This document shows positions 1,712 through 63,098 of a DNA stretch of 64,000 nucleotides, one piece after another; position 1 is the first letter of the stretch; the number at the start of each line of letters is the position of its first letter. Origin of the DNA: Tetraselmis striata (Eukaryota > Chlorophyta > Chlorodendrophyceae > Chlorodendrales > Chlorodendraceae); assembly GCA_006384855.1 (NCBI GenBank), contig VCJN01001809.1:140998-204997 (forward strand). The letters run 5' to 3'. The notes beneath the pieces are model-generated. The model made no database searches and had not been told where the DNA came from. It worked only from the letters and a program-made list of their open reading frames with translations. The translations under genes and the position numbers were made by a program.

Positions 1712-4700
1712 ATGGGCTGCGGTGGCTCAAAGCCGGACGCAAACTCAGCGCCAGCAGACACTAGAACTCACAAGGCCGCGCCGGCACTTGCTCCGCCTCA
1801 GAACAACTCGCCGCCGGCAGCAACAGGGAAGGAATCCGCCGTTTCGCAGCCCTCCAAGGTTCGTCCCGGCACGTCGGGCCCGCTGCGCTCCCTGCCATTG
1901 CCACTGCCACCCACGCCGGGAGTCGGCATCTGCCCGCGCGCTTCAGCCGCATGTCTCCCGCGCCCTCCCACCTTTCTGGCTTACCGATGTCATCACGATA
2001 GATATGCGGATTTATTGAGGGTTAAACCTATGTAGTACTCTTCGAACTGTCGATTAACGCGGTTATTTATACTCGCACCCCTGCGGGCGCGGATGACGCA
2101 TCCGTGGTATCCGTAGTATCCGTAGTTTGCAACGCGCCAAATAAAAATAACCGCGAGGAGAGTGTCACCATCTCACACCTGGCCTCGTTCAAGTCGCCGC
2201 CCCTGTTACCGTTGCGGTTACCGCCCCTGCCCACTATTGCCAACCCATCCGCCCTTTTTGCATCACCAATCGAGCCGGGAGTTGCTCCGGGGAGGCAGTC
2301 GCAACAGTTTCCGGCACTGGTCGTCAGTTGACCCGGCGTTTTTTGGCGCGGCGGCGGATGCCGCATAAACTTGGGCGAGCGCGTGGCGACAGCTCAGCCC
2401 CTCTTGCCCATGGACCAGGCCTGGACACGCACACCGCTGGTGCAATATCGCAAATGTGACAGATCCAAGCCTAGCAGTTTGCCCAGCGAGCAGCTTGCAG
2501 CCATGTTACCGGGCTGAGCTAGGGTTGAGCTCGGTGCCCCAGCCTCTTCCCAGAGGGCTGGCTGCTGGCTGATGTCAGGGCATCCTTACCTCCCCCCCCC
2601 CCCCCCCCCCCCCCCCCCAACCCAACCCGTGTGCCTGCAACCTAACCCTCCGCAGGTGCGTCCAGAGAATGAGGCCTCTGTGAGCAAGTCCGTGGCCGCG
2701 CCTGCTGCCAAGGAGGCACCTGCGCCCAGCCCCGCGCCGGCGCCCAAGGTGGAGCTCACAGCGGCGGCCATGGAGACCCCGATGAGCCCCGGCGGGGCGG
2801 CGCCCATGGAGGTGGAAGAGAAGAGCTCGATGCAGAAAGCGGCGGACAAAAAAAAGTCGCTGCGTCACTTTTCGGCCATCGACATCGACGCATACGGCCT
2901 GGAGGACGAGGACGATGACGCGATTCCCGAGGGCCTGGAGGCCACGGACAAGGAGCCAGAGCAGATCGACTCCATCTTTGATGCCGTCTCCTCCAACATG
3001 CTCTTTAGGAACCTGGCCAAGTGAGCACCGCTTGCCCCTCCCGCACCCCCCCTGCCCCAAGCCACCACCACCACCACCACCACTACGACACAGCCCGCTG
3101 CGGTTGACTTGTGCATGTTTGTGCGACTCATACCGCCGCCCGCGACCCCCACGCACCAGGCCGTTGCTGCTGGAGGTGATTGACGCCATGGCCACGAGGG
3201 ATGTGAAGGCTGGGGAGATCATCATCAAGCAGGGATCCAAGGACGGCAAGGAGTTCTTCGTGCTGTACGACGGCACGTGCACGCTCACCAAGGATGCGGA
3301 CCAGGAGGACAAGCGCATTGAGCTGGAGCTCAAGCCCACCACTGGTGAGCTGCCTTAAGAGTCCGCCCCCCCCCCCCCCCCTCTCCTCCTCCTAGTCCTC
3401 CTCCACTCAACACACTTTCCGCTCCCAGGTGCCCCAGCTGTCAACACACGCGCGAGAAAGTGAATTAGGAAACTAAAGCAACCCGAACGGACGCCCGGGA
3501 TTGACTGACTATCAATGTCACACGCAGCAAGTGTCCGGCTGGGGCTGTACTTGCTGTGCATGTCACGCCTGCACTGGTAGCGATCTAAGCTAGGTGCACT
3601 GTCCCACTGTGTGTGTGTGTGTGTGTGTGCTTGTGCGTGTCTAGCTACCGTATCCACGCTTGAGGTTCGCTACATGTCACTTGAATGGAAATCTACCGCA
3701 GTATTCCCCGAATACACCACAAGCTCCATGCTCCATAGCTCCGAGTCAATGGCGACAAGCAAATTCCCTGTGTTGAAATATACAAACCCAATGAAAGGAC
3801 GCAGTTGGTATGTGTTCTATACATGTCAACGGAATGATTGCACGTATTTCAGGGGTGTACAAACATACCTTGTCGAGCTTTGAGACCTTGGGCGCCCCCG
3901 TTCGCAGGCTTTGGCGAGCTCTCGCTGCTGTACCGCGCCCCTCGTTCCGCGACCATCGTATCCAAGACAGACTGCAAGCTGTGGGTGCTGCACAGCAAGG
4001 TGTTCACGCAGATCCAGCGCAAGTGGCAGGCCAAGGAGCTCAATGCGCGCATGGAGCTCATCTCCAGCGTCAAGATGCTGGAGGAGCTGGACGAGCACCA
4101 GCGCGAGCTGCTGAGTGATGCGCTGGAGCGCGTGGAGTTCAAGGCGGGCGAGGTGAGGGGCCGGCAGGCCGCCCTGTTTGCTGTGACTGCGCGCCTGGGT
4201 TTGGGGGGGTGGGGGTGAGGGAGTCCTCGGCGGAAACTGTTGAGACTGCGGAACATTTCTCGTGGGGGGCTATGGACCCATCACCATCACCACCCGGTGT
4301 CATTATGACTTGCCTACCAACATCCCCCCAATTTACAGTCACATAAGCAACACCTCGTTCCGCGTAGACTTATATGCTGATCCGAAATAACATCTGTGCA
4401 TTGTCGTCATACACGCCGTGCAGTGCCAACACTGTCGCGGCTAATGGTCAATGCAACACCTCAATGCAAGATGGCAACCATGTCCCTTCTCTACTATCAC
4501 CGTTAAAAGCAATGCCGGAGGATCTCATTATCCGGACCGCGTCGCCTCATTACAGCTGCCCCGCAGTATCGGCCTACAAGCACTGCGTAATGATGCTGGC
4601 ACTGTGGTGCATTTATTGGAGCACAAGTTTGCGGATGCAGGAAATTGGTGGTTAAAATAAATTCGCCCCGGGCCATTGACCGAAGCCGCCCCAGCACTTG

Positions 4701-31913: not shown

Positions 31914-32260
31914 TGCAGTAGTGCGGTGCGGTATTGAGACAAGGACAAGTGGTTTGAGCAGACGGATTCTGGTTACATGCCGGTTGGCCGCCGGCTTGTA
32001 ACTGGCAGGTCGTGGCAGATCGCTTCGGGCTAGAGGTCACGGATGACCGGACAGTAGCAGTCAAATGGCACCATATGTAGCATAACATATGTGGGCCGCG
32101 GGGATCATCACCCTCGGGCACTAGGCGCATGCAAGCATGCGAGTATACTCGTAAAGGTGATGGGGATGGATTACAAGTATTATGCAAATGGTATATGTCA
32201 TAGTGGTGAGGGTATGGGTGTATGCATAGGTATGGTTTGGGGAACATGCCCTAGCTAACA
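31914..32260 (-). repeat. 5' LTR of the gypsy element
   Basis: 347 bases, partner of 27041-27384. Its outer end abuts a copy of the retroposon tail repeat that begins at 32261. Confidence 0.9.
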
Positions 32261-32405
32261 GAGGATGGCCGGAAGCTTGAGCTGTAATTACTCTATATGT
32301 GTTCCCTACTATGGTTAGAGATGGCAGACCCTAAGAACAACTCTGTCCGAGCGGCGGAGAGCAGCATGCTAGCACATTGTAATCAATTATTCCAATTGGA
32401 GTACT
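32261..32405 (+). repeat. 5'-truncated retroposon tail, copy a
   Basis: Begins gaggatggccggaagcttga, then gtgttccctactatggttag and agcggcggagagcagca, ending in AT-rich sequence with ttccaattgg. It matches the 3' end of the full-length insert at 57877-61257. The gypsy element ends exactly where it begins. Confidence 0.75.
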
Positions 32406-38321: not shown

Positions 38322-40784
38322 CCTTCCTGAAGAACCCAGGTCCACGGCAGTGAACGCCAACTTGGCCGTGTGATTGTGCGAGAGGCGGCGGTGCGCCCTG
38401 AACCGAGTAGCGACCAGTGGGGACTCCGGTACTACCCGTGGCGATCATACGGTATCGATCGGTATAGTAGCGACTAAGGATTTATCGTTACTCTACGGCA
38501 TGTAATAAAATCCATCATCAATATATTCCTGACCGCAGTACAAGTGACACTACCCCGATAATGAACCCCCCCTGTTGTAAACCTACCCCTATGGTGCTTT
38601 CAGTTCCGCAATTAGTCCGCATATGCTCGAAGCACTACAGGTAGCGTGAGAAAAATATTGACAGGGAACCCCATAGTGAACAAAGGGGAGGGGGCACCAA
38701 CGTGAGAGTTAGTACTTTACTTCATAACACTTCATACCTCGCCAACAGGGGGAGGGGCCCCGAATGTACATTTTAGAAGTAACGTCACTGGTCCAGTATG
38801 TATCCTCTCGTACCTGGCGTTCGGGCGGCGGTATACCGCGCGTCGGGATGCGTATATACCCGCCCCGCGTACGACATAAGGACAGAGGGGCACAGGGACA
38901 AGTAATAGAGGAATCCGCCCCTGCCCGTGTAAACCCACAAGGCCAGTACCCATAGGCCAGTCGCTATCTGTAGTCGCGGGCTGCGTCTTAGCATCGCTCA
39001 ACCCGTAATTCACAGCAGCTGCTGCTAAAGAGACAAGCCAAGGTAGCGACTGACATATCTGCAGGGGTACAGGTAACTACGGTAATATATTATCTCATAA
39101 TATACTGATGTACGAGTACACAACAGCGTAGTACAGTACAACTCTCTTTTTAGTAGACCTTCAACCCTTCAAAGTGTCAGTAAGATTACCCCTCGTGATT
39201 CACGTGAATCACGTGCTGATATATAATGGATCCGAGTGGTTGTTCGGGCGAGCTGCTCGTGCAGCATCTGCCTTCAGCCGGTCCAGCACGCCGGCGTCGC
39301 ACCCGCGCTGCTCGCCAGAACCGTACTGTACAGCCGACCGCAGCTCGCAGCATCCGGTCTGCTCCCACGCGCTGCAGCTGCGACCCGCCCCGGGGCTGCT
39401 CCCACCAACCTGCTCCGCTAACAGCGGGCCCGCCGCCCGTGCTTATTGCGCGCCACCCGCCGCGCCGCGCATCGCGAAATATACCTGTTTTGCGCGTACG
39501 GCAGCGAATCAGCATCATAATCTGCGCGCGAAGGGAAGGATTTACAACAGTTCAGAGACTCCATAACGGAGACTCCATACTCGGACACGACGATTAGTCG
39601 CCTGGTACTCGCCGGATTATCACTGCTCGCCACGAGGCGGCAGAGGCCACACGATGATGGTTTCTTAAATGTGGCCGAGGCCTGCCCACACCAGCCGCCT
39701 CCGAATCCGAAGCACAACCCAGCCCCATCCGCGAGGAAAGCCGGACGTAGCCGCCTCCGCTCGCATCCGCACCCAACCAACCCGCCTTGTCATCCCCAAG
39801 AGCGTGGCCACTGGCAGCCTGCAACCTGCCCCGAGCCACGGCCCCGGCCCCACCGGAGAAACGCGAGGCGCACAAAAACACCTCTATCTCACCGCCTGGT
39901 CAACTCCGGTCCTACCCTCCCCCCGGTGCGGAAGCTCACCGCGGGCCAGATCCCGCCCCCTAGATGACCTCACCGCCCGCGACATCTCCCCGGAGGCCGC
40001 TCGCCGCAAACTCGTCATTCCGGAAGATATAGCCCAAATGGACCGCAACTCCCCCCACATACGTATCCGCATTGCAAAAAGAATTGCTTGCCTTAGCACG
40101 GACGGCCCGCTCCTCTCACTCCTTCCCACTCCTCTCCCATTCCCACTCCTCTCACTCCTCTCACTCCTCTCACTCCTTTCCCCTCACCCGCTCTCCCAAG
40201 CGACGATGGACGGATGGCCGACGACGACCGCGGTTCAGGCGCCGAGCCTGGTGACCAGGTCAACGAAGAAGACTGCATAGACGGATATGTAGAGGGTCTC
40301 TGAGCCACCTTGCCCGCACAAACCACCACGCGCGCCGCGGCGGCGCACTAATTGCAACCCTCATTGACCTCATGCCACAACATACCCCTCCCGCCCGCCC
40401 GCCCCCCCCCCCCCCCCCCCCCACCCCATATCGCAACCACCACTACCACAGGCTTGAGACGGCACCTCATATGGCTGCGGAGACCCACGTACGCTTCAAC
40501 TGCCTCGTCCGCCCGCGCTTGATTCCTCTGCGGGACATACCCCATCAATTGGAATGGGCGGCAACATGGCGCCGCAATAGCTAGGCGCCTACCAGAGCAA
40601 CGGGTCGAAGTTGCACGTAGCGGCCCAAACACCGATAGGTCGCCAAGGGCGCTGTAATGAAGACGGAGAAGACGTAGGAGTGGCGCAAAAGACGAAGAAG
40701 CCGGAGATGCCGCGAAGTAAACGATAGCGGACATGATGAGGGCTCAAGGCTGCGACGGATAGAGGCGGGGACGGAAACGGAAGA
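38322..40784. other. Intergenic; no gene recognised
   Basis: One stretch (about 39966-40100, plus) reads DISPEAARRKLVIPEDIAQM and IRIRIAKRIACL in one frame and could be an exon, but no partners were found. A CT-rich microsatellite (ctcactcct repeats) is at about 40133-40185 and a C run at about 40402-40422. Confidence 0.35.
39194..39213. promoter_or_regulatory. 20-bp perfect palindrome centred on CACGTG
   Basis: CGTGATTCACGTGAATCACG reads the same on both strands and contains the G-box/E-box core CACGTG. It could be a bHLH/bZIP site, but no gene start is close, so its role is open. Confidence 0.4.
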
Positions 40785-40922
40785 GGAAGGCCGGTAGCCG
40801 GAGCTACTATACACATATGTGTCCCTACTATGTTAAGAGATATGGCATGCCCTTTGAACAACTCGGTCCGGGCGGCGGAGAGCAGCGGAATAGCATATGG
40901 TGAATCGGTTTCAATTTCAATT
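40785..40922 (+). repeat. 5'-truncated retroposon tail, copy b
   Basis: aggaaggccggtagccggag, then tgtccctactatgtta, gggcggcggagagcagc and a tail ggtttcaatttcaattgg. Same family as copies at 32261, 42490 and 61113. Confidence 0.75.
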
Positions 40923-42005
40923 GGTGGGCGCTACAAGTCCCTAAGACATGTTCCCGGCTGGGTGCGACAGGGGGCTGAGCGGGGTGGCCGCGGTCGTGGC
41001 GGGTCCTTGGATCCTGCGACGACCAGGGAGCCCCATGGGGCTCTTCAAATGATACTCGTAGTCCTGGTAGCGCCTGTTGGCGCCGCCGGGCCGCAACCAT
41101 GTACGGGGGTTGCTAAAATAACTCATGTACGACCTCGGCCTTATTGCGTCGGCTTCTTTGAGATCCGCCTACGAGTGGGGAGGGGGTGTGTTCGACTCGG
41201 ACATGGCAGCCTAGGCGCGAAGGCTGCTGTTCGAAATAAAGTCGTGTTCTCGTGTCTCGGTACGACCCGCGACTGACGTGCAAAAGATCTTGCGTACCCC
41301 CCCCCCCAACCCGTATATGTTCCACCTGCAAATCACTATAATCTAGGCCTATCACAACTGAGTGATCGGTGGCACCCTACGGCCGACCCGTTCGGAACAC
41401 CCGGGAAACCCTCATCCCTGCCTTGAGAACGGGCGAGGGCGGCGAGCGCGAGGAGACGGGAGCCCGGCACTACTTAAAGGCGGGGTGGTCGTTCGGGGGC
41501 GGCGAGGCCGTGCCTCGCATGGGCTCACGGGCCAAGAGACAGAAGCCGGAGTGCCATGAGGGAGTCGCAACCATGCGTCGGATGGCGGCCATCTCGGTCC
41601 GACCTCGGACGTACGGCTATAGCAACGAGGCGCGTTGCGGAGGCGAGCGGCGCGCGGGCGAGTATGACCGGCCTGCCCACCACGGAGCGACGACACGCGG
41701 ACACGGGGGGGGGGGGGGGGGGGGGGGGGGCGGAGGGGGGGGCTTTCCCCTTGCAATCCCCCTCGGGAATCCTACCGCCGCAAGAGCTCAAGCGGGCGAA
41801 ATGGAGGCAGCATCGGCGGACCGCGGCCGAGGCCGGCAGACCGCCACAACCGGCGCGGTGGGGCAATCAGCGCCGCGACATGCGAGATATTGTATCCAGC
41901 GATGGGGGCAGGAGGAGTCAAGACGCAGCATGACGACCGAACTTGCGCGGTGCCGGTGCATTACCGCTGTAATGCTTACATGAAAACATTTTCGGGGGCG
42001 GGGCG
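40923..42005. other. Non-coding stretch with poly-G tract
   Basis: No gene recognised; long ORFs here are GC-driven. A G run lies at about 41705-41732. Confidence 0.4.
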
Positions 42006-42358
42006 ATGTGAGGAGATATTCTCACGATATATACACGATACACTCTCGCAGTGTGTCATCCTCGGATCCTCCGCGCTTTTGATAGTGCGCGGCTATCAAA
42101 AGCTACAGTAAAGCGCGGAGTCCACGGATCGAATCCCATTGTCGGTTCGCGGATGTCACGCATTACAGACGATATCATATGACCAACTAACAGTGTCATA
42201 TCATACCGTGGCCAACTAACAGTGCCAACCGCTACGCCTACCTTTCAGGGGGATGGAATGTGAGGAGATATTCTCACGATATATACAGGATACACTCTCG
42301 CAGTGTGTCATCCTCGGATCCTCCGCGCTTTTGATAGTGCGCGGCTATCACAAGCTAC
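42006..42358 (+). repeat. 101-bp direct repeats with internal palindromes
   Basis: 42006-42106 and 42258-42358 differ at only a few bases. Each includes the palindrome gtgaggagatattctcac and the hairpin gatagtgcgcggctatc. The 151 bases between contain a smaller duplication (ccaactaacagtg twice). The layout could be another miniature terminal-repeat element, but no TG...CA ends are clear. Confidence 0.6.
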
Positions 42359-42489
42359 CTACTCCTTACAGGCGAGTACCGTACTGCGGTCGTAATCCCC
42401 GTACTGCCAATTAGCGATAGTCGCTCGCGTACGGCTGGCGACTGCACCCGTAGTTATTATCCGGAAAGTAACACAGCTACTGATCACGT

Positions 42490-42676
42490 GATGGAAAGAG
42501 GCGGGGTTTGGAAACAAAAGAGGATGGCAAGGCGCTTGAACTGTAATAATTACACGAATCCTTTTACGTGTTCCCTGCTATGATAGTTGGAGATGACAGG
42601 CCCCAAGAACAACAACCTGAGCGGTGGAGAGCAGCAGGCTAGCACGTTGTAGCAGGAAATCAATTTCAATTTGTAT
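42490..42676 (+). repeat. 5'-truncated retroposon tail, copy c
   Basis: Extends further 5' than copies a and b (gaaagaggcggggtttgg), then aggatggcaaggcgcttgaa, gtgttccctgctatgatag, gagcggtggagagcagcagg and the tail atcaatttcaatttg. Confidence 0.75.
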
Positions 42677-43432: not shown

Positions 43433-44690
43433 TCACTGTGAAATATTAGCAGCGGAACGCTGCGGTGCCAGGGAGCCGAAGAAGTAGCGGGCCCCAGTGG
43501 AGTCCAGGATGCATGGCACGATGTAATTGAGGACCACGCCGTTGCCCACTTTCTAGCCGCCAAGCCAGCGAATCGTAGGCATAGGGACGCCCGTGGCCGA
43601 GGCCGCGGACGCCCCGCCACTGCGAAGGCTGTGCGACGACCAGCAGAAACCTGTAGGCGGGGTAGCGTCAACTGCCAAGGCAGCGGCAGTAACCCATTCG
43701 GAGACAGTAGCCGCGGTGCACGTGCCGGGATCATCATCAGGGAGCTGCCAAAACCGAGTAGCACCCGGCAGCACGTGATCGCGGCAGGTTACGAAGAACT
43801 CCAAAAGCTCCGCGATTTTGGGGTGCGCCTCGCGGGAAATTTGCAGCACCGGACGAGGCGCCCCGGAAGGCTTGCCCTTAAGTACTCGACGGTACAACGT
43901 AATGCTGCGGGAATCAACCGCCAAATCGCGCACGCCGCACCCCGTACTAGTACCCGCGCGGTGACAAAAAAGGAAATTGACCGCGGTAACGAGCAGGGCA
44001 CGGAATGTGGGCAGGTCGCACGCGATGGACCTGTGAGAAACCAGCCGCTGCGCACGCCGAACACAGGCGAGGGCGACGTTCGCAGGCAAAGGCACCCGGT
44101 AGTCCGGGGCGTCCAGCACCTGCTGAGCATGCTCCCAACCGCGCATCGCCTGGTTGACCAAAGGCCCAAGCGCCGGCGGCTCCTTGAAATTATCGGTGAA
44201 AAGGCGTCGATCGCTGAAAGGTAGGGTCCAAAGGCACCAGCCTTGTTGCGGCCACGTGCCGCAACCCAAGAGATGTACCGAACGATGAGCGGCGGATCCG
44301 CCGTGTCCGGCAGTCTCCCATTTTGCGCGCAGTACTCGCAGAATATGCTGAATTCAGATCCGTAAGACTGCACGGTACGTTCCGCGCGCGAAGCCATCAA
44401 GAAATTCGGCGCCCAACCTCGTCGCTCGTCGCCGAGTAACCGCAATAGCCCAGGTCGCATAATCGCTGCCCATGGTGCAGACGGTACGTTCGATTTCAAC
44501 CCGTACCGCACAGTTGGGTGTTGTCTGCTGATAGCATCTGTACGGGAGATGTGAAAAGCGGCCGCAGAAACGTCCAAGGTAGCAGCAGCAGTACTTAACG
44601 CCCCGTAACCGGCGCGTCGCGACCGGTAGAAGAAGGACGAAATGGACGGCGGAAGAGCATCACGCTCCAGGGCGGCGGCCCGACGCCTGC
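43433..44690 (-). pseudogene. Tyrosine recombinase of the kangaroo-like element
   Basis: The N-terminal core-binding part reads ERTVQSYGSEFSIFCEYCAQ and RYISWVAARGRNKAGAFGPY. A one-base shift near 44220 leads into DAPDYRVPLPANVALACVRR, VNFLFCHRAGTSTGCGVRDL and the catalytic segment HSLRSGGASAASATGVP with the HxxR pair. TAG at 43553-43555 interrupts just after IRWLGG. The same frame continues as KVGNGVVLNYIVPCILDSTG to a TGA at 43433-43435, supplying the Tyr expected of the nucleophile. Tyrosine recombinases cut and rejoin DNA through a 3'-phosphotyrosine link. Here the stop removes the Tyr, so the product would be dead unless the stop is read through. Confidence 0.85.
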
Positions 44691-46620
44691 GCGGCGCCCG
44701 AGCAGCCCGGGAAAGAACAGATCGCGGGAAGGAGGGTAGTGCAGTACCTCGGTAGCCATATCGTGTAGCTGCTGGAGCCAAAGGCGGCTGTGCCAGGCCG
44801 GGGCGACCACGGTCGCCGCGGCGCCCGATTGCTGCAGCTTTAGCACCAGATCGTCCAGCAGCTGCCAGGGGGGATTGCACCAGTTCACTTCGGCGCGCCA
44901 CGTGGCGTCCGACTGGGCCAAGGAGTCCACCGCCTCGGTACCTGGGACCATCCACCGGGAGTTGTACCGAGGTAACAAAGCGTTCTCCATAGTTGCAAAT
45001 CGGTCGACCGTATGAGGTCCCCAGATGCGATCGACGTACCGGAATATACGAGGATTGATCATCCAATCGGAAAAATCCTTCTCGCGCGAAAGCTTGTCCG
45101 CCCATGCGTTCGCCGCAGACCGAATGTACCGTACTCGTAAACGAATATCGTGTACATCCAGCAAATACCATAGCTTGCGAAGCTCCGCCATAAGTACCGG
45201 TGACCGAGTAGTCAAATTGGACAGGATATGCACCACCGCCTGATTGTCCTCGTACAAAAGTACGCGGCGCCCCATCAGCCGTGGAAAAATGACTGTATAG
45301 CGAGACGTACCGCTTTGAGCTCCTTGTACGTTATATGCCGTCGACGATCCTCCTCGTACCAATATCCGCGTGCCTCCGTAGTTTCGCACAGTACCGCACC
45401 CCAGCCGTACTGGCTGGAGTCCGTGTGCAGATAGGCTGTCTCCACCGGACGCAGAATCGGTGCGCCGTTGTGGCACGTGGGAACATCGCGCCACCACTCC
45501 AAATCGCGAATGAGCTGACGCGTCAGAACGACCTTGCCGCTCGGAGAGGAGGATCGGCCCAGGATGGTGTGCGCCTCGCGGAGGTAGAAACGCGCCGGAG
45601 GCATCGCGAGGTAGAGGAACTGGCCCTGCCCGGCGAGAGACGCAAGGAGTTTGGCCGGCGCGGGGCGGCGGCGGCGCGCAGCGATGCACATGAGGTCGCG
45701 GGCCAGGTTGGAGAGCCGACGCAGTTTCGCCGATGGGGCGCGGAACTGCATAGTGACCAGGTCCAAGTCCAGGCCTAAGTGCGGCAGCTGCTGGGTGGGC
45801 TCGGGGTGCGCCTTGGTGGGGTGCTTGGCCAGGCCCAGGCGCCCCCAGACTCGCTCGACCTCGGCCCGTAGGCGTAGAGCCAGCTGGCGCGAAGGTGCCA
45901 GAAACAGGAAGTCGTCGATGAACGGTAGGAGGCAAACGCCGCGCGCCTTGCGGCGACGCAAGCGTCGACGGAAGGGCCGGCCGTAGTTGCTGTAGGTCGC
46001 GAAGTCTGGTTGACGCAGGTAGCGCACCATGACCGCTATCAGAGTGCAGAAGTAGTAAGGGCTCAGCGACCAACCCATGGGGAGGGCCGCGAAGCGCCAC
46101 AGGGTGCCACGTACGTTGATTGTAAAGAAGTCGCGGACGTCCTCCCGCAAGCCCAGGGCGTAGAAGCCGTCCTGCAGGTCGAAGGAAAACGCCCAGTCGC
46201 CGCGTTTCGCCAGGTACCGCAGGCGACGCAGAGTTTCGAATCGCATGGAATAGACCGCGCAGTAAGAGTTCAGATGGCGCAGGTCTATTACAAGGCGCCA
46301 CTGGTTGCAGCCCGGCTTTGGTACTAGGAAGACTCGCGACACGTAGTGCTCGCGCACGCCAGGTTCTAGCGCGCCGACTGTTACTAGTCGCTGGCTCTCC
46401 CGCTCCCTTCACTCGAGCTGCTGAGGTGTGGCGTCCTGTAGAGAGACGCCCCGGTGGAAAGACGTGGGCGCCGCGCCAGAGAAAGGTAGCGGCACTCCCT
46501 CGCGAACCCACCGGAGCACGCGCCCGCTCGCTCCGATTCGCCGCCACTCCCGCCAGTTCTGCCGCACGCGATGGCGCAGAAACGTGGAGGGGCGTGGTAA
46601 CGAAGCGGAACGGCGGGCCG
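44595..46620 (-). pseudogene. Reverse transcriptase/RNase H with NPPW domain, kangaroo-like element
   Basis: The frame begins inside the gag region with NWREWRRIGASGRVLRWVRE, meets a TGA at 46409-46411, and continues as the RT: RVFLVPKPGCNQWRLVIDLR, FSFDLQDGFYALGL, LPMGWSLSPYYFC and the catalytic LPFIDDFLFLAP. RNase H follows with YLHTDSSQYGWGAVLCETTE and RHITYKELKAVRLAI. A shift near 45280 leads to the remainder: LLYEDNQAVVHIL, DVHDIRLRVRYIRSAANAWA, then VDRFATMENALLPRYNSRWM and VNWCNPPWQLLDDLVLKL. The NPPW stretch is the Dam-like domain often found after RNase H in DIRS-class elements. The RT is clearly of the DIRS type (DQQDGF-like motif and FIDDFL). Confidence 0.88.
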
Positions 46621-46625
46621 CACCG

Positions 46626-55480: not shown

Positions 55481-56449
55481 TCACGTGCCGCACGCGCGGC
55501 CGCGACCCCGCCAAGAACGTTGTCTGCATGCATGTGCCATGTTGATGAGCAAGGAGAAACGGCGGCGCCACGCGGACAAGAGCTGGCCGATTTTTTGGCC
55601 AGTGTGTGTGTGGCTAGCTTTCGCGAGCTCCACCAAGAAAGCCTCGGCGTGCGGACGAATCCTCGGCGTGCGGGACGAAGTCCCGCGGACGAATCTGCGC
55701 CGTTTGATGAGGCGGCGAGCACGCCCTCGAGCCGCCACCAAGCTCAGGACCCCGAGGAAATCTCTTGCGATTACGGGCTCATGGTGAGCCCGGGTGGTGC
55801 ACCGAGTGCCCCGCGATGAGAGGGCGCCCCGGTCCGCAGCCAACCATGCGATGCCGCGCACAGTGCAGCGCATCCCCTTGCTCACCTCACCCACTGGGCC
55901 GAAGACCATGCCCGTGTAATCCGACATATCTAGAATGTCTCGAAGAGGGCCCCTCTGTCCGGGCTCCGTGTTGTGCCACGCCACATCCCGCACTGCCAAT
56001 CCCCGTTGTATGTCGCCCAACAGGGAGCGCTCAAACCGACCCACAGCCGTGGCCCGGGGCACCGCAGTGTACTTGACCCTGTACCGCATAGTCTTGCACT
56101 CCAGCAACGTGGACTTCAAGCTCCGGGGATCATAGCTCCCAGTCACGACGTTGAACGCCGTAAGGGAGAGCTCTGCGTCCGGCACTAGGTCCTTGAGTTC
56201 ATCCCTGGGTACGGTGTTGCCAAGAGGCACTGCCTGCTGGAACAAGTCATCCACCTCCTGGCGTACAACGATACCCAGGTCGTGAACACAATGATTGCGG
56301 AAGACCTCTGCGATAGCGTCGTGTTGTACACGCCAGTGGGCGTCTCCAGGTGCCGGGAGGTTCATGAGCGCGTCGCCGTCCAAGTCAACAATGACGGGGT
56401 TGTGCTCTGCCGAGGGCAGAATGATCTGGCTCCCAACCACCGGGGGCAA
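55481..56449 (-). pseudogene. LINE C-terminal domain with PD-(D/E)XK-like motif
   Basis: Reads LDGDALMNLPAPGDAHWRVQ, HDAIAEVFRNHCVHDLGIVV and RQEVDDLFQQAVPL, then LVPDAELSLTAFNV and, after a charged spacer, KSTLLECKTMRYRVKY. PD followed by E-C-K fits the PD-(D/E)XK nuclease plan used for target cleavage by restriction-like endonuclease LINEs. The segment after it (RFERSLLGDIQRGL, GPVGEVSKGM) matches the style of algal and oomycete LINE C-termini. The frame ends at 55481, but its last part may be read-through. Confidence 0.65.
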
Positions 56450-57876
56450 GCACGGGCTAGGCAGAAAGAAGTACCCGGCAAGACCTCCCGCAGCTCATGC
56501 GGAGGCATGACCGTCCGCGCGGTGGGGATGGCTACCGTCCACATGCCCGCCGCCGCATCGAGTTGGTTGAACAAGATCCGTTCCCTACATGTGACAAGGA
56601 GAGCGCACACCTCATTTCGAAGCCGAGAGTTGTTGGCATGGTCTAGAAATGCCGTTAGCTCCTTTTGCGAGCCCGACGCAGCCTCTACTTCCCGCGCCAT
56701 CATGCGGGCATATGCGTCGCTGAGGTGACCAGCAGTAGCCGCTTGGAGGCGGCCCCACGCCTCGCGGACCGCCGCACAGAATTAGTTGCCTTACCCACGA
56801 GCATCGTTGAGGAAGTGGTCATACCAGCGGGCGGAAGAAGTTGCGTTGAAGCTGTCTCGGTCAAGTACATACCCAAGCTGTGGGGCAAGGAAACCAGGGG
56901 TGGGGGTGTTGGTGTCGGAGTTCCTAGTGAGGAATCTTGGGAGGATGTCATTCATGCAGCATGTAAAGGCGGCATCACGAACGGTAGCCATGCGGCGGAT
57001 GCCATCGCCTTTTCACCGAGTGGGGAGATGAAGACTACTGCGGGCCCTGGCCACTGCAACCTCGCTCAAGGCAGCCGCCTCTGCTGCCATGGGGTCGGGG
57101 CCGTGCAAAAGCTCCGCCAGGAAAACGGTGACCATCGGATTGGTGTCGGTGTCGTACGTGGAGGGACGAGTAGAGACCCCTAGCACCCGCTCGACCGCCG
57201 CGAGGACGGTGGCATCCACCGCCTCCGCAAAGGCCTCCTCCTCGGACGGGAGGCAGTCGTGGAGCCAATACCTCGCCTTGTGTTGCATGCAATGCTTGAG
57301 AAGGGCCCATGCATTGTGATGCACGGCGTGCTTTTGTCGACGGCTAGGCTTGGCAGATAGGAGCTTGCCCATGCTAGCGTCCACCTCCTCTCGTAGCTTC
57401 TCCGCCTTGTCGCACATGGACGCCTGCACATACTGTGGCGATCCGAGCGGCACGTTGAGGACCGGGATGCCGTGGTGGCCATCCAGCTCGGGTCACTCGA
57501 TGTCGGCCGGAGCCTCACGCCGCGCGGCCTCCATGTATGCGCGGTACGCCTGCATCTTGTCGGAAGGCGTGAAGATCCGGCCGAACATGCTCCGGAGGCC
57601 CACCAAATATCCATCGTCGGCGGTGAAGCGCGCCGCCCCGTCAGTGACCTCCAACGTGCTGTCACACAGCCTGATCTCGGGGTGAATCGCGACGCAGAAG
57701 GAGGTCGTGGCCAACGGTGCGCCCTGTTGCACGCCGTCCTCCGACCGCAGAGGGGCGGACCGATCGTCCACGACCAGATACGAATCCGTGGGGCGGGAGG
57801 CTAGGAGCGCAGGGATGACAAGGCGTAGTGGAGAGCAATCGATGTGGCGTTGGATGATGGTGCGGCGCCACGCCTC
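56420..57876 (-). pseudogene. LINE reverse transcriptase, palm to C-terminal region
   Basis: Directly after the insertion site: EAWRRTIIQRHIDCSPLRLV, RSEDGVQQGAPLATTSFCVA and the catalytic segment AARFTADDGYLVGLRSMFG (ADD). It then continues in the same frame across TGA at 57493-57495 to LDGHHGIPVLNVPLGSPQYV, across TGA near 57013 to RDAAFTCCMNDILPRF, and across two TAA codons (56794-56796, 56785-56787) to AYARMMAREVEAASGSQKEL. The polymerase would prime on cleaved target DNA. Confidence 0.8.
57866..57876. repeat. 11-bp target-site duplication, left copy
   Basis: CGCCACGCCTC, repeated exactly at 61258-61268. The two copies flank the plus-strand retroposon and lie at one point in the RT frame (…EAWR). 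Confidence 0.88.
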
Positions 57877-58229
57877 TCTTCTCACTTTCCAACCGGCCCT
57901 TAACACAGGGCGAGGTACTGCATATGTACTAAATCCGGGCGAGCGGGCGCGGCTACTGGTACTGGTGGCGTGACCCTCCTGTGAAACGGCGGATCGTCCG
58001 ACGACCGGACGACCCACCACCAGGCCAACAGACGACATGCGCCCACAGCGGCGTGAAGATCAGGCCTTCCAGGAGGACACCACAACATGCAGCATGGATA
58101 CAGACAGCCCTGAGAAGCAACAAGACGCCGGGGTCGGCACCTTTCTGGCCGCACTCCGAGGCGGCAGAGTGCAACAGCCAACGATCCGTACGGTCGCAAC
58201 TGCAAAATGTTTCGCAGGCACCTAGCTCC

Positions 58230-60695
58230 CACCAGCAACCCGCCGCCACATACGCGTGTTGCAACGCCCATCCCACCTACTTCTCACCGGCCTCCCCGCC
58301 GGTACGGACGATGCCCCCCATGTGGCCCTACTCTTCGGCGATCTAGTGGCCCAACACCAAGCCATGGACGAGGAGTCGCGCAGCCGGACTGTGACGAACC
58401 TGATCCACACCCTCAGCCCCAAAATCGGCGTTCAAATCCTACCAGCAGACGTCAGGATGGTGATGCGCCGCCCCCCCAGGCCAGCCGCCGCCGACACCGC
58501 TGGACCGATTGGCTTTAGGCTCCCCACCACCACAGGGTCAGTCATCCTGCGACTGGCCCGCAGAGACACAGCCGAGAGCGTTCTACAGACCCAATGGACA
58601 GGAGAAGGCACAACGATCCTCGACCGCCAGGGCCGCCGCTGCTCCACCCGCCTGCTCGGAGCACCACACCTCGACGACATCGAACGCCCGATACACCAAG
58701 TGTGGCTTCGCTCCCCTTCGTTTAGAGGCCTCACGGAGGCCGACATGTGGCTGCGCCTGGCGAAGGCCCTTCTCCCAGCATACGACCAACCCCAGCCATG
58801 CGAAGCGGCGGCAGACCAACCGGCGGCGACACCGGCGGACGTCCTGGCACTCGCCGGAGTGAGAGCGTGGGCCGAGTACGAGGCCGACACAGACGCAGAC
58901 GACGCCGTCATCTGCCCCCGACCCGCACACTACTGTCCCTCCTGGAAGTCCGAGAGATATGGAAAGCCCGCCGCTCGGCAGACTCGGTTCTCCTCGAACT
59001 CCTCGATCCCGAAGCGGCGCGTCTACTACTGATGTGTGCCGCGACGCGGTACTGGCGCTGCCGTTTGTCGACCAGTCGCAGGGCCGAGCAGTGATCCAAG
59101 TCACAGTCGAACACAACGAGGACCGCGAGGACCTGCCCACCGCCCCGCTCCCAAGAGTACTGCCCTCGGCGCTGTCCACACAGTTCTTCCGATGCGTGTT
59201 GACGGCCAAGGCGGTCTGCACCGGCCCCCTGGCCAACTTGGAGCTGCCGACGGTGGAGCAGCTAGCGGAGGCCATCGCAGCCACCATCAGCCAACGCACC
59301 AACACACCCCCATAGCTGCACCACGCACAATGGCTGACAGACACCATGACGGCTGCTGGCGGCGAGATGCGCCGCCACCACACAGAGCCAACACTGCTGC
59401 GCGTGGGGGACGACCACCTATGCGCCATCTCCCTCGGCAAAGAAGACGAGGAGTTCGCGGACACCCTACGCCTGGCAGTGGCCCTCACCTCACATGTCGC
59501 ACTACTGCGGGCGATACGCCTCCGCACCATCGTCATCTACCTCACGGAGTCCGAGTTCGACCCCTCGGAGCTGCTCATCCACCCCTTCAGCCAGACGATC
59601 CGCGAGGCGGGAGAACTGGGTGGCAACACTGGCCGCAACCAGATCCGACGCGTTGCGATAGGCATACGTAAGAACGTCCGGAAGACCGCCCCAGCGTCCC
59701 TCGCCCTACGAGCCACCGGACGCCCAATCTACACCCTCACCCTGCAGCTGACCGCCCACCACCACAACATCATTGGTGGCACCCGAGGCACCGACATGAC
59801 TGAGCAGTGGCGCAAGACATTGTCGACAGCGTGCGGGAAGATCAAGGCCGCGCCAGCTCCGGCACCCGCCGAGAGGCGCCCTGCGGATACATCACCAGCC
59901 CCACCACCGGCAGGCCCAATCGCACTACCTCTTCCAGCGACCCGAGCAGCCTATACCGCACCCCTGGTCCGCGACGCTCCCCCCCAGGGTTCGAGCACGT
60001 CCCACCGAGGCGCGGAGCGGTTGCGGACGCGGTGGCAGCCATCGACCAGTTAGGAGATGCAACGGAGCGAGCCCCCGGAGCAGCCCCCCCCAGCTCCTGC
60101 ACCTACAGCCACAGCCCCAGCGGCAACTGCCATGCCTGGAGCAGAGGCGGACGACGAGGAGGAACTGCAACTCAACCACGTGGAGAACGACAGCGCCATG
60201 GAGGTGGACACCACTCAGGGCGCGGCAGCAGAGACACCAGGTCTGGCAGACATATCCCTCGATTCCCCCCGGCGCTCAACAGTGCACCGCACATTCAGGG
60301 AGGGCACACCCAATGGCAGCACTGAGAGACTAGCAGAACTCCACCACCTTACCACAGCAGCCACAGAGCTGCTTGCACAGTCCTCTCCTGCGAGTCAACC
60401 AACACTAGCCGCCAACCTGGCCAGCCTCGCAGCAGAGACACACCAGCTACGCAACCCACAGCGCCTCTCCATCCAGTTGGAGCGCCACCCCAGCCAATCC
60501 ACCCTAGCCAGCAAGGGCAAGGCAGCCACAACAGCCAAACATAAGAAGAAGCAGCCCAAGGGCCGCAGCCGCTCGGACGGCGCCACCCGCAACCGCAGCA
60601 GGAGCAAGCTGCGCCTCTCTGGCGCCCACGGCTCAGACAGTGAGTGGGAGACGGACGACGAAGCAGCTCACCCGTCCAGCAGCTCACACCAGTAA
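58230..60695 (+). pseudogene. ORF1-like protein of the nested retroposon
   Basis: About 810 residues if lesions are ignored. N-terminal part (ATG at 58256 or slightly upstream): HLLLTGLPAGTDDAPHVALL, PKIGVQILPADVRMVMRRPP and GSVILRLARRDTAESVLQTQ resemble the RRM-type beta-alpha folds of LINE ORF1 RNA-binding proteins. Two shifts (about 58920 and 59035) join this to LLSLLEVREIWKARRSADSV and then DAVLALPFVDQSQGRAVIQV. The rest stays in one frame to 60695, interrupted by TAG at 59313-59315 and 60051-60053. A second RRM-like region may be LRTIVIYLTESEFDPSELL. The C-terminus is Pro/Ala-rich, then acidic, then Lys/Arg-rich (KHKKKQPKGRSRSDG), ending WETDDEAAHPSSSSHQ. Function is inferred from this layout, not from a firm match. 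Confidence 0.65.
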
Positions 60696-61112
60696 GCTGC
60701 TAAGCGAGCCATTGCAGCACCACCCAAGCCAGCTGCCTCAAGAACACCGCCCACCACTAACCCTGTGCCCGGTACAGCTCACACACCAACACACACCCTA
60801 CACACAATGAACACACAATCCGATTCCACAACCGCCACAAACAACACCCCCCCAATTCCATGCTGGAGGGCATCGCAGCCCCCACCAATCATATTAGCCG
60901 GCTCAGCGGTGCATAAACATTGAGCACCACATAGCTATTCCGGTCAGCCCCCTTCCCCCATCATACCTTGGTAGCTGTAGGCGGGACGCTTCGGCTGCCT
61001 AAGCTTGCCTGCTGAGCTCTGGATGAGATAGGCCTGACTTAGGTAGGGATAGCAGGGGGGCGCTGTTGTCTTAGCTACAGCCCACCGGAAGGAGGAGGGG
61101 CTAGGAAATATT

Positions 61113-61257
61113 GGAGGATGGCCGGTAGCTTGAACTGTGATAACACTTCGTGTTCCCCACTGTGGTTAGAGATAGCAGGTCCTGAGAACAACTCAGGCTG
61201 AGCGTGCGGATGCATCAGACTAGACGTTGTAACTAATTTCAATTTCAATTTCAATTT
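61113..61257 (+). repeat. 3' tail of the nested retroposon (reference copy d)
   Basis: ggaggatggccggtagcttg, gttccccactgtggttagag, ctcaggctgagcg, gttgtaactaatttc and then aatttc repeats. Copies a, b and c at 32261, 40785 and 42490 match this segment. Confidence 0.8.
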
Positions 61258-61268
61258 CGCCACGCCTC
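61258..61268. repeat. 11-bp target-site duplication, right copy
   Basis: CGCCACGCCTC, identical to 57866-57876. The first base could belong to the AATTTC tail, so the duplication is 10 or 11 bp. Confidence 0.88.
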
Positions 61269-62045
61269 GTCGTAAGCGTTGCGAAGGTCGGTGTGAACGA
61301 TGACGGCACGTGGGCCAAGCTTCTCGGCGATGAACCGGAAGCCGTGGATGAGCATATAGTCGCCCACGGGAATGCCAACGCCGAGCTGAGATGGAGCAAG
61401 CACTGACAAATATGCCTCCTTCATGTTGTCCACTACTGCCCGCTCCGCCGCTGCGCGCCGCTCCGCCTCTCCGACTGCCACAGGCCGGACATTCGGGGCC
61501 CCGTTTTCGCCTAGCTTCTTGGCAGGTGCCACGAGCCTAGCAGAGGCGAAGAGCCGGTTGAACCACCCGGGCATGCGACCTTGGAGGTACATTGAGGCGA
61601 CCTCTGACATGGCGCGGACCGCCGCAGGCCCCTGACCAAGCAGCGGAGATACTCGTTGCGCATGCGTGAGGGCCCTGGCGCCACATGTTGCTTGGTACGG
61701 CACGTGCATGTCCACCGTTAGGGCGGCCTCGTCGACCACAATGTCATTCGCGGCGTCTGAGATCGGGTGGCTACAGAACGGGTGCTTGTTGCGCGGCTGA
61801 GGGAGGATAGCAGGATCGGATAGGTCGCCCATACCCTTCGAAGATAGTCGGCCCGCCGCTCGGGAGAGCTCTCCGTCCTCCACCAACGCCACAACGGTGT
61901 CCGCGGTGCCCACGAGTAGCGCCGCAAAGAGGTTAGCGTCCGTTCGACGCTGGCGGGCATGTCCGGCGTAGAACGGCTCATTGCGCGCGTCGTCCCATGA
62001 GCGCACGAGTTCGGTCATGCGTGTTGACACCAATGTTGCTGTCAC
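61269..62045 (-). pseudogene. LINE reverse transcriptase, N-terminal part
   Basis: Open frame from the ATG at 62045: MTATLVSTRMTELVRSWDDA, ADTVVALVEDGELSRAAGRL, YLQGRMPGWFNRLFASARLV, KLGENGAPNVRPVAVGEAER and RAVIVHTDLRNAYDEAWR. The D of HTDLRNAYDE is the first RT catalytic Asp. The frame resumes on the far side of the insertion as EAWRRTIIQ. This half has no stops. The ORF start lies inside a duplicated 269-bp sequence, so its first seven codons may be acquired. Confidence 0.85.
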
Positions 62046-62290
62046 TGCTGTACTCCAGACAATGTAGCTAGGGTATGCGTATTAGTACTTTAGCACATAT
62101 CTGAGTGGTACGAGCACCGCGCTACGCACGCGCCGCGGGCACCGCATCGCGCCAGCCATATAGGCGTTCGGCGCTCCGGGCATGCTCACTTCTCTGTAAC
62201 CAGACACTCTCCCGGCTATGGGCTTCCGCCTCTCAACCCCAACGTGCGACATGCACCAGCACGTCGGTTGCGGGGAGGTTGCGCATGACA
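62022..62290 (-). repeat. 269-bp direct repeat, copy 1 (5' region of the LINE)
   Basis: Partner of 62830-63098 with about half a dozen differences. It carries the codons for MTATLVST at its end and so may hold the element's promoter and leader. Confidence 0.85.
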
Positions 62291-62610: not shown

Positions 62611-62853
62611 CTAGTATGAAGTCGCATGCGAAACTCGGCACACCAGCGCCAAGGAGAAGTTGCCAACCGCGACTTTTATCCGCTCGACAGCCGGCGCCGT
62701 CAGACGCCCTAGAGGACCTGCCCCGATCCACGCCGAGGTCAGGGCATGGCGGGCAGCCTCTAGGCTAGCGACTAGTGCTAGCAGCCGAAACCCCTGCTTG
62801 ACGCATCCCCTTGCGACATTGGGAGGGGATGTTGACACCAGTGTTGCTGTCAC
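62611..62853 (-). CDS. Small ORF sharing the duplicated start region
   Basis: 80 residues: MTATLVSTSPPNVARGCVKQ and onward (GFRLLALVASLEAARHALTS). It begins with the same seven codons as the LINE frame because both starts lie in the 269-bp repeat. No domain recognised. It may be a remnant of the LINE's 5' region rather than a gene. Confidence 0.3.
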   Translation of the reverse strand: MTATLVSTSPPNVARGCVKQGFRLLALVASLEAARHALTSAWIGAGPLGRLTAPAVERIKVAVGNFSLALVCRVSHATSY

Positions 62854-63098
62854 TGCTGTACTCCAGACAATGTAGCTAAGGTATGGCGTATTAGTACTTT
62901 AGCACATATCTGAGTGGTACGAGCACCGCGCTACGCACGCGCCGCGGGCACCGCATCGCGCCAGCCATATAGGCGTTCGGCGCTCCAGGCATGCTCACTT
63001 CTCTGTAACCAGACACTCTCCCGGCTATGGGCTTCCGCCTCCCAACCCGACGTGCGACATGGACCAGCACGTCGGTTGCGGGGAGGTTGCGCATGACA
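62830..63098 (-). repeat. 269-bp direct repeat, copy 2
   Basis: Offset from copy 1 by exactly 808 bases at both ends. It could be part of tandem 5' monomers. Confidence 0.85.

Follow-up and report, generated by a model that had tools for sequence, protein, structure and literature searches.

In the green alga Tetraselmis striata, a 64-kb stretch of contig VCJN01001809.1 (assembly GCA_006384855.1), hereafter the window, carries a full-length retroposon of 3381 bp at 57877-61257 on the plus strand, which comparison with other copies assigned to a family designated family A. Its G+C content is 63%, against 58% window-wide. The insert is bordered by the 11-bp sequence CGCCACGCCTC (57866-57876 on the left, 61258-61268 on the right), which occurs nowhere else in the window; the mean number expected by chance was 0.03, and none of 100 shuffles reached two. 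It interrupts a repeat gene on the minus strand. When only one CGCCACGCCTC is kept, the host frame is open from 62045 to 57496, its upstream part (61269-62045) resuming past the insertion at 57496-57865. The duplication and the rejoined frame establish the insertion as genuine, and the exact insertion point proposed in an earlier note, made from the sequence alone, was upheld. The insert ends in a (CAATTT)n tail (61235-61257, plus strand), which that note had read in another register as (AATTTC)n. The same insertion is present in a second contig (C331, locus L011), where a deletion took the 3' end together with some 220 bp of flanking sequence.

The assembly searched comprises 224 Mb. A 501-bp probe from the middle of the insert gave 401 candidates, and the 40 that were scored, including the window copy, showed 89-100% identity. 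We fetched 20 A copies, the next best-scoring after the window copy; the share of full-length copies among them describes this sample and is no estimate for the genome. Sixteen of the 20 were full length (about 3.4 kb) and represented 10 independent insertions, duplicate loci (L013-L017 with L022; L012 with L018) being counted once each. Fifteen matched the window element in one piece from nt 2-5 to nt 3375-3381, and the sixteenth (L024) in two. The full-length copies started at most 5 nt from a common 5' end and extended to the tail; a full-length A transcript would start at CTTCTCACTTTCC. The four incomplete copies were L011, which is deleted, L019 (from nt 446), L027 (nt 270-2584 only), and L029 (from nt 679). 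Single copies diverged from the majority sequence by 4-5%. Family A is thus a dispersed multi-copy family with fixed ends, and the window insert is one decayed copy of it; among the copies fetched, the search for full-length copies suggested by the earlier note returned none that would make the window element a deletion specific to the window.

Flanking sequences were readable for 19 A copies, corresponding to 13 independent insertions with the window included and L011 and L027 excluded. At 10 of the 13 there were target-site duplications, which varied in sequence, with flank matches of 9-18 bp, compared with a maximum of 8 bp among 310 mismatched control pairs; the 18-bp match (L025) falls in a run of C. 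In the L013-L017/L022 group and in L030, each a single insertion, a further 19-26 nt separated the duplication from the 5' end. The flank match of L019 was just 3-4 bp, and that of L029 was 7 bp, a level also met by 9 of the 310 control pairs. L029, weakly flanked, and L053, a 3' part only, are candidates for 5'-truncated copies. A sequence ending in GTTAAGCGG...ACGAGTG adjoins the 5' end of L019 and also stands inside L037, at different points of the two family elements.

The coding region of the window copy spans 58094-60695 on the plus strand, from the ATG that aligns with a Met of family C (see below) to the stop codon TAA at 60693-60695. It is frameshifted and lies in four plus-strand pieces (58256-59032, 58959-59315, 59346-60053, and 60057-60695). 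The long ORF1-like gene (ORF, open reading frame) of the earlier note is therefore not open in this copy, but it was recovered at the family level: the majority sequence of 14 independent A copies (L011 excluded from the alignment) contained a single frame of 907 codons, 867 of them from the Met aligned with that of C. The longest frame in any fetched copy was 858 codons (L028), and 1000 first-order simulations read in six frames gave at most 529. The A ORF is thus a real frame of the family. The majority protein has eight cysteines, is rich in Pro and Ala after residue 600, and has a basic C-terminus; it contains neither a CCHC zinc knuckle (CX2CX4HX4C) nor the motif [YF]xDD. A Pfam search with three translated A copies gave no significant match and detected no reverse transcriptase (RT) or endonuclease. 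AlphaFold2 yielded no confident fold (mean predicted local distance difference test score 29.6 for the A ORF and 36.2 for one stretch). We call the ORF 'ORF1-like' by its position only.

Crossing the places found with a mid-ORF probe (40 of 401 candidates) with those found with a tail probe (40 of 1080) gave 26 pairs. The spacing from ORF to tail was 1.99-2.12 kb in 25 of them, compared with 2.08 kb in the window, and the odd pair at 12.2 kb (C2750) corresponds to the incomplete copy L027. Full-length relatives of family A as a rule have no RT between the ORF and the tail. Given this constant spacing, we therefore rejected the explanation that the window copy alone had lost its RT by a simple deletion. 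Family A is a polymerase-less family, as the earlier note had supposed, and no RT-bearing full-length relatives were found among these pairs.

The last part of the element is not confined to family A. A module of about 175 nt (61083-61253, plus strand; nhmmer and alignment), together with the (CAATTT)n tail, was common to A and at least two further families, B and C, and occurs on unrelated bodies; the expectation of a 3' end common to other families held. Searching with a profile built from the terminal ~175 nt detected three extra copies in the window, all on the plus strand, and more at other loci. Those in the window are at 32241-32399 (nhmmer E 7.2e-44), at 40758-40924 (E 9e-40), and at 42493-42674, the last terminating a family B-like copy at 40922-42674 that was matched in two pieces (blast to L040; nhmmer). 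Allowing one mismatch, the tail pattern occurred at 1039 sites and the reversed pattern at none. Family B, about 1.4 kb in length, has a fixed 5' end and a longest majority frame of 273 codons; visual inspection of six copies showed duplications of 10-12 bp in four, one with a mismatch. Three B copies (L044, L046, and L048) have CAATTT tails of about 150-300 nt, which suggests slippage during copying of the tail. Tails of modules in the same direction also stood 1.3-1.75 kb apart, in an array-like head-to-tail arrangement, at C303:143142/144449/145761 (+), C309:2728/4186 (-), 40924/42674 in the window, and L049:382/1677.

Family C shares more with A than the module. The 3' untranslated stretch of the window copy at 60864-61254 (plus strand) matched that of C with 85% identity over about 390 bp, and the N-terminal ~170 residues of the C protein were homologous to A (scores 228 and 302, compared with at most 88 and 98, respectively, in 200 shuffles each). 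The identity was about 40%, with tblastn E values down to 1.3e-22; in the window the homologous region is 58031-58468 on the plus strand (E 1.5e-20 with the C2019 protein). In the two C proteins read, homology to A was confined to these residues. A search with 83 residues of C gave 477 candidates, of which the 150 scored showed 52-100% identity and no open frame longer than 529 codons. Fifteen of these 150 were followed on their own strand by a listed tail no more than 12 kb away, 13 of them at 1.18-1.30 kb and the other two at 4.9 kb (C277) and 8.8 kb (C1705).

The check for purifying selection proposed in the earlier note gave a divided answer: selection was not significant within A and was visible only between A and C. 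Within A, the ratio of nonsynonymous to synonymous variants was 457/227 among singletons, 138/84 among those present in at least two copies (p=0.22), and 79/55 among those present in at least three (p=0.09); many shared variants fall in the final 217 codons, an alignment region rich in insertions and deletions. A comparison between two C copies was near neutral, with a ratio of nonsynonymous to synonymous substitution rates (dN/dS) of 0.83 (NG86) or 1.01 (YN00). Over 149 codons, A and C differed at the three codon positions in 49/60/82 cases, respectively (p=2.5e-4); three further A-C comparisons gave p=7.8e-4 to 2.3e-3, and dN/dS was 0.50-0.59 over all four, which are not mutually independent. 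The codon-position signal was absent upstream of the start Met, but this stretch is only 23-30 codons long. From the excess at third positions, coding constraint acted between the two families; it may date to a common, possibly autonomous, ancestor.

The interrupted host gene is itself a high-copy repeat, with 6237 first-look candidates, 124 of them scored, and open frames of up to 1584 aa; the C-terminal part of this repeat family is found at 55481-56449 on the minus strand. The earlier note had described an RT frame of a long interspersed nuclear element (LINE) that resumes across the insert. The resumption was confirmed, whereas the RT label was not: it comes from the motifs GVQQGAPLATTSF and FTADDGYLVG, which read as those of a LINE RT, and the pieces of the gene gave no significant match (best E 0.18 in Pfam; 0.043 or none in PDB; none in NCBIfam). 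Adjoining the start of the host gene, a direct repeat of at least roughly 130 bp that starts with TGTTGACACCA was read by eye at 62030-62160 and 62830-62960, about 800 bp apart; these are possibly the ends of another element. Elsewhere in the window, 43553-46625 on the minus strand contains DIRS-type-like remnants, with frames that by eye are presumably RT-like and tyrosine recombinase-like, and a Dam-methylase-like match that narrowly missed its cut-off (PF05869, E 4.8e-6). Outside the window, L056 (C2001) carries a gene best matching the M chains of purple-bacterial reaction centres, and the assembly probably contains bacterial contigs. PF00124 matches were accordingly not taken as plastid sequence, the L056 fragment being closest to these M chains; a third, short match lies at C340.

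We propose that family A is a non-autonomous retroposon of the non-LTR (long terminal repeat) type that is copied by an enzyme encoded elsewhere, a reading to which we assign a probability of roughly two in three. A full-length A transcript would consist of a leader of about 216 nt, one ORF of about 867 codons, and the ~175-nt module followed by CAATTT repeats. A polymerase/endonuclease supplied from elsewhere, presumably by a LINE, would recognise the module and tail, nick the target, and copy the A RNA into it by target-primed reverse transcription, leaving duplications of mostly 9-11 bp; the A protein may act in an RNA-protein particle. Families B and C probably use the same machinery, because their 3' end is identical in kind. 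In favour of the proposal are the duplications and the rejoined host frame, the full-length copies with their constant spacing from ORF to tail, the tail sites in one orientation only, the module on unrelated bodies, the majority frame, the A-C homology, and the precedent of TRE5-A.2 in Dictyostelium.

Several observations weigh against this proposal. The hijacking of a helper LINE, as the earlier note had it, remains conjecture: the survey for a LINE sharing the tail at 61113-61257, partial in that RVT_1 matches were not systematically compared with tails, found none with this 3' end, only families A, B, C, and others. The A protein, which that note supposed to be RNA-binding, has no known domain and matches no known family significantly (best E 0.12 in Pfam and 0.095 in PDB; none in NCBIfam), so this role is unproven. 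The module is strongly conserved in sequence and shows no covariation (RNAalifold; none of 16 predicted pairs changed on both sides). One A locus outside the 26 pairs, C2106, has a gap between ORF and tail that is about 1.2 kb longer than in the window, a gap known by its length only. The L012/L018 insertion has no clear duplication (flank match 3-4 bp). Finally, only two endonuclease matches (PF03372) preceded any of 215 distinct listed tails by 12 kb or less on that tail's strand: C1641 at 4.7 kb and C458 at 9.6 kb, the number expected at distances up to 6 kb being 0.19.

The search for a helper covered several kinds of enzyme. RVT_1 gave 150 matches among 3001 candidates, two of which were fetched and read as Ty3/gypsy. 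All 115 first-look candidates for PF03372 were scored and 65 matched, and PF14529, a further endonuclease, had no match among 4 candidates. The C1641 endonuclease was set aside, rather than excluded, as a helper: the module downstream belongs to a B copy (L045) with the usual B 5' end, and the endonuclease lies outside it. Frames in the flanks of L045 had no significant Pfam match, 2.8 kb between the endonuclease and the B copy being unread. A family with a 1352-codon endonuclease frame was rejected, since the 3' side of one copy (L038) lacks the module, as was the host repeat gene, which in L051, the single copy read, ends without it; for the host repeat, the comparison of positions with tails was purely visual. 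Conserved RNA structure in the module was likewise rejected: besides the missing covariation, a hand-chosen hairpin paired in 93% of cells, compared with at most 64% in slid versions, but was no better than shuffles. Rfam gave three matches in 30000-64000 of the window, all under the gathering scores.

Other explanations place the polymerase differently. The genome, or its unassembled parts, may contain a complete LINE that combines this ORF1 and this 3' end with an RT, A and C being its ORF2 deletions, in the strict manner of HAL1 or TRE5-A.2. Such origins have precedents, HAL1 having arisen in this way several times in mammals (PMC5753468) and TRE5-A.2 standing in this relation to TRE5-A.1 (PMC5391098). 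The C-type ORF matches at C277 and C1705, known by position only, could hold the room for an RT, 0.32 such distances being expected at 1.5-6 kb. The typical spacings are nevertheless too short for one (25 of 26 in A and 13 of 15 C-type), and no endonuclease match lies within 8 kb of any listed C-type ORF. We consider this a serious contender that falls somewhat short of an even chance. In another explanation, A and C arose from a LINE by deletion and move only by virtue of their 3' end, like oversized short interspersed nuclear elements (SINEs), and the ORF is inherited baggage that encodes an idle protein. The weak signal of selection within A and the near-neutral comparison of the two C copies fit such an idle protein, as does the multi-copy state of B, which has the same module and no majority frame above 273 codons; opposed to it are the 907-codon majority frame of A, open despite broken individual copies, and the excess of third-position differences between A and C. 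On balance we think this explanation somewhat unlikely.

If the product of the ORF were an unrecognised polymerase or endonuclease, A would be autonomous, and a protein of 867 residues with neither a significant database match nor a confident model leaves some room for this. The majority protein, however, lacks [YF]xDD, and the two C proteins share just the N-terminal ~170 residues with A even though C-type candidates number 477, making autonomy very improbable. Repeated retrocopying of an ordinary host gene would also produce a single long ORF, a 3' untranslated region, and a tail at the end. Such an origin is hardly credible in view of the constant ends, the hexamer tail in place of poly(A), the module on unrelated bodies, and the 401 candidate copies.

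Our preferred reading, a non-autonomous A copied by an enzyme from elsewhere, can be extended only tentatively. A and C are about 40% identical, both apparently without polymerase, and have kept frame and 3' end; they might belong to a long-lived lineage of protein-coding LINE parasites, in which the ORF protein is a maintained capture tool and B a second-order parasite using the protein, the polymerase, or both. We think this somewhat unlikely as it stands.

Protein-coding, helper-dependent retroposons are already known as a kind, and by analogy family A fits that kind. TRE5-A.2 of Dictyostelium discoideum is a non-LTR element that has kept ORF1 and has no ORF2; the ORF2 protein that mobilises it in trans apparently comes from TRE5-A.1, and a trap assay showed similar activity for both elements (PMC5391098, PMC5633606). 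It resembles A in having an ORF1-type gene without ORF2 and thus offers a protist precedent for the proposed mechanism, but its autonomous parent is known and its targets are tRNA genes, whereas no parent of A was found in the partial survey. HAL1 (half-L1) of mammals encodes only ORF1p, is derived from L1, and arose several times (PMC5753468). Family A likewise has one ORF, ORF1 by position only, and no RT; it differs in that no parent LINE was found and its ORF has no significant Pfam, NCBIfam, or PDB match. The tail of HAL1 is poly(A), and those of A are (CAATTT)n.

HeT-A, at Drosophila telomeres, encodes a Gag/ORF1 protein, lacks an RT, and presumably uses one from elsewhere (PMC5537684). 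The protein is kept without an RT in both cases, but HeT-A forms telomere arrays, whereas each A copy read stands singly at an internal site, usually between target duplications. HeT-A Gag carries CCHC zinc knuckles, of which the majority A protein has none. Chlamydomonas SINEX elements have a 3' end common with RandI or L1-1_CR, and tails of green-algal RandI include (CTATTT)n (PMC3747384); RTEX-N1 of Ectocarpus, about 600 bp long and non-autonomous, has a 3' end common with a LINE (PMC12477816). These share with A an apparent non-autonomy and a 3' end common to more than one family, and the RandI tails are hexamer repeats as in A; the non-autonomous ones named are SINEs or an element of ~600 bp, whereas A and C are protein-coding and their LINE partner was not found. 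A SINE is short and non-coding with a Pol III promoter, and A is 3.4 kb long with a 907-codon frame.

Family A therefore does not belong with HAL1 (neither a parent LINE found nor a poly(A) tail), with HeT-A (no zinc knuckle, internal sites), or with TRE5-A.2-type derivatives (no parent found). Less usual is that two or more diverged coding families carry the 3' module of a non-coding one, with no parent LINE found. In the literature covered, mostly outside subscription journals, a 3' module common to several diverged families with ORFs and to a family without coding capacity was not encountered. ORF1-only retroposons raise the question of whether ORF1 helps an RNA to capture a polymerase in trans, and several families with one 3' end, with and without a protein, make selection and copy success comparable within one genome.

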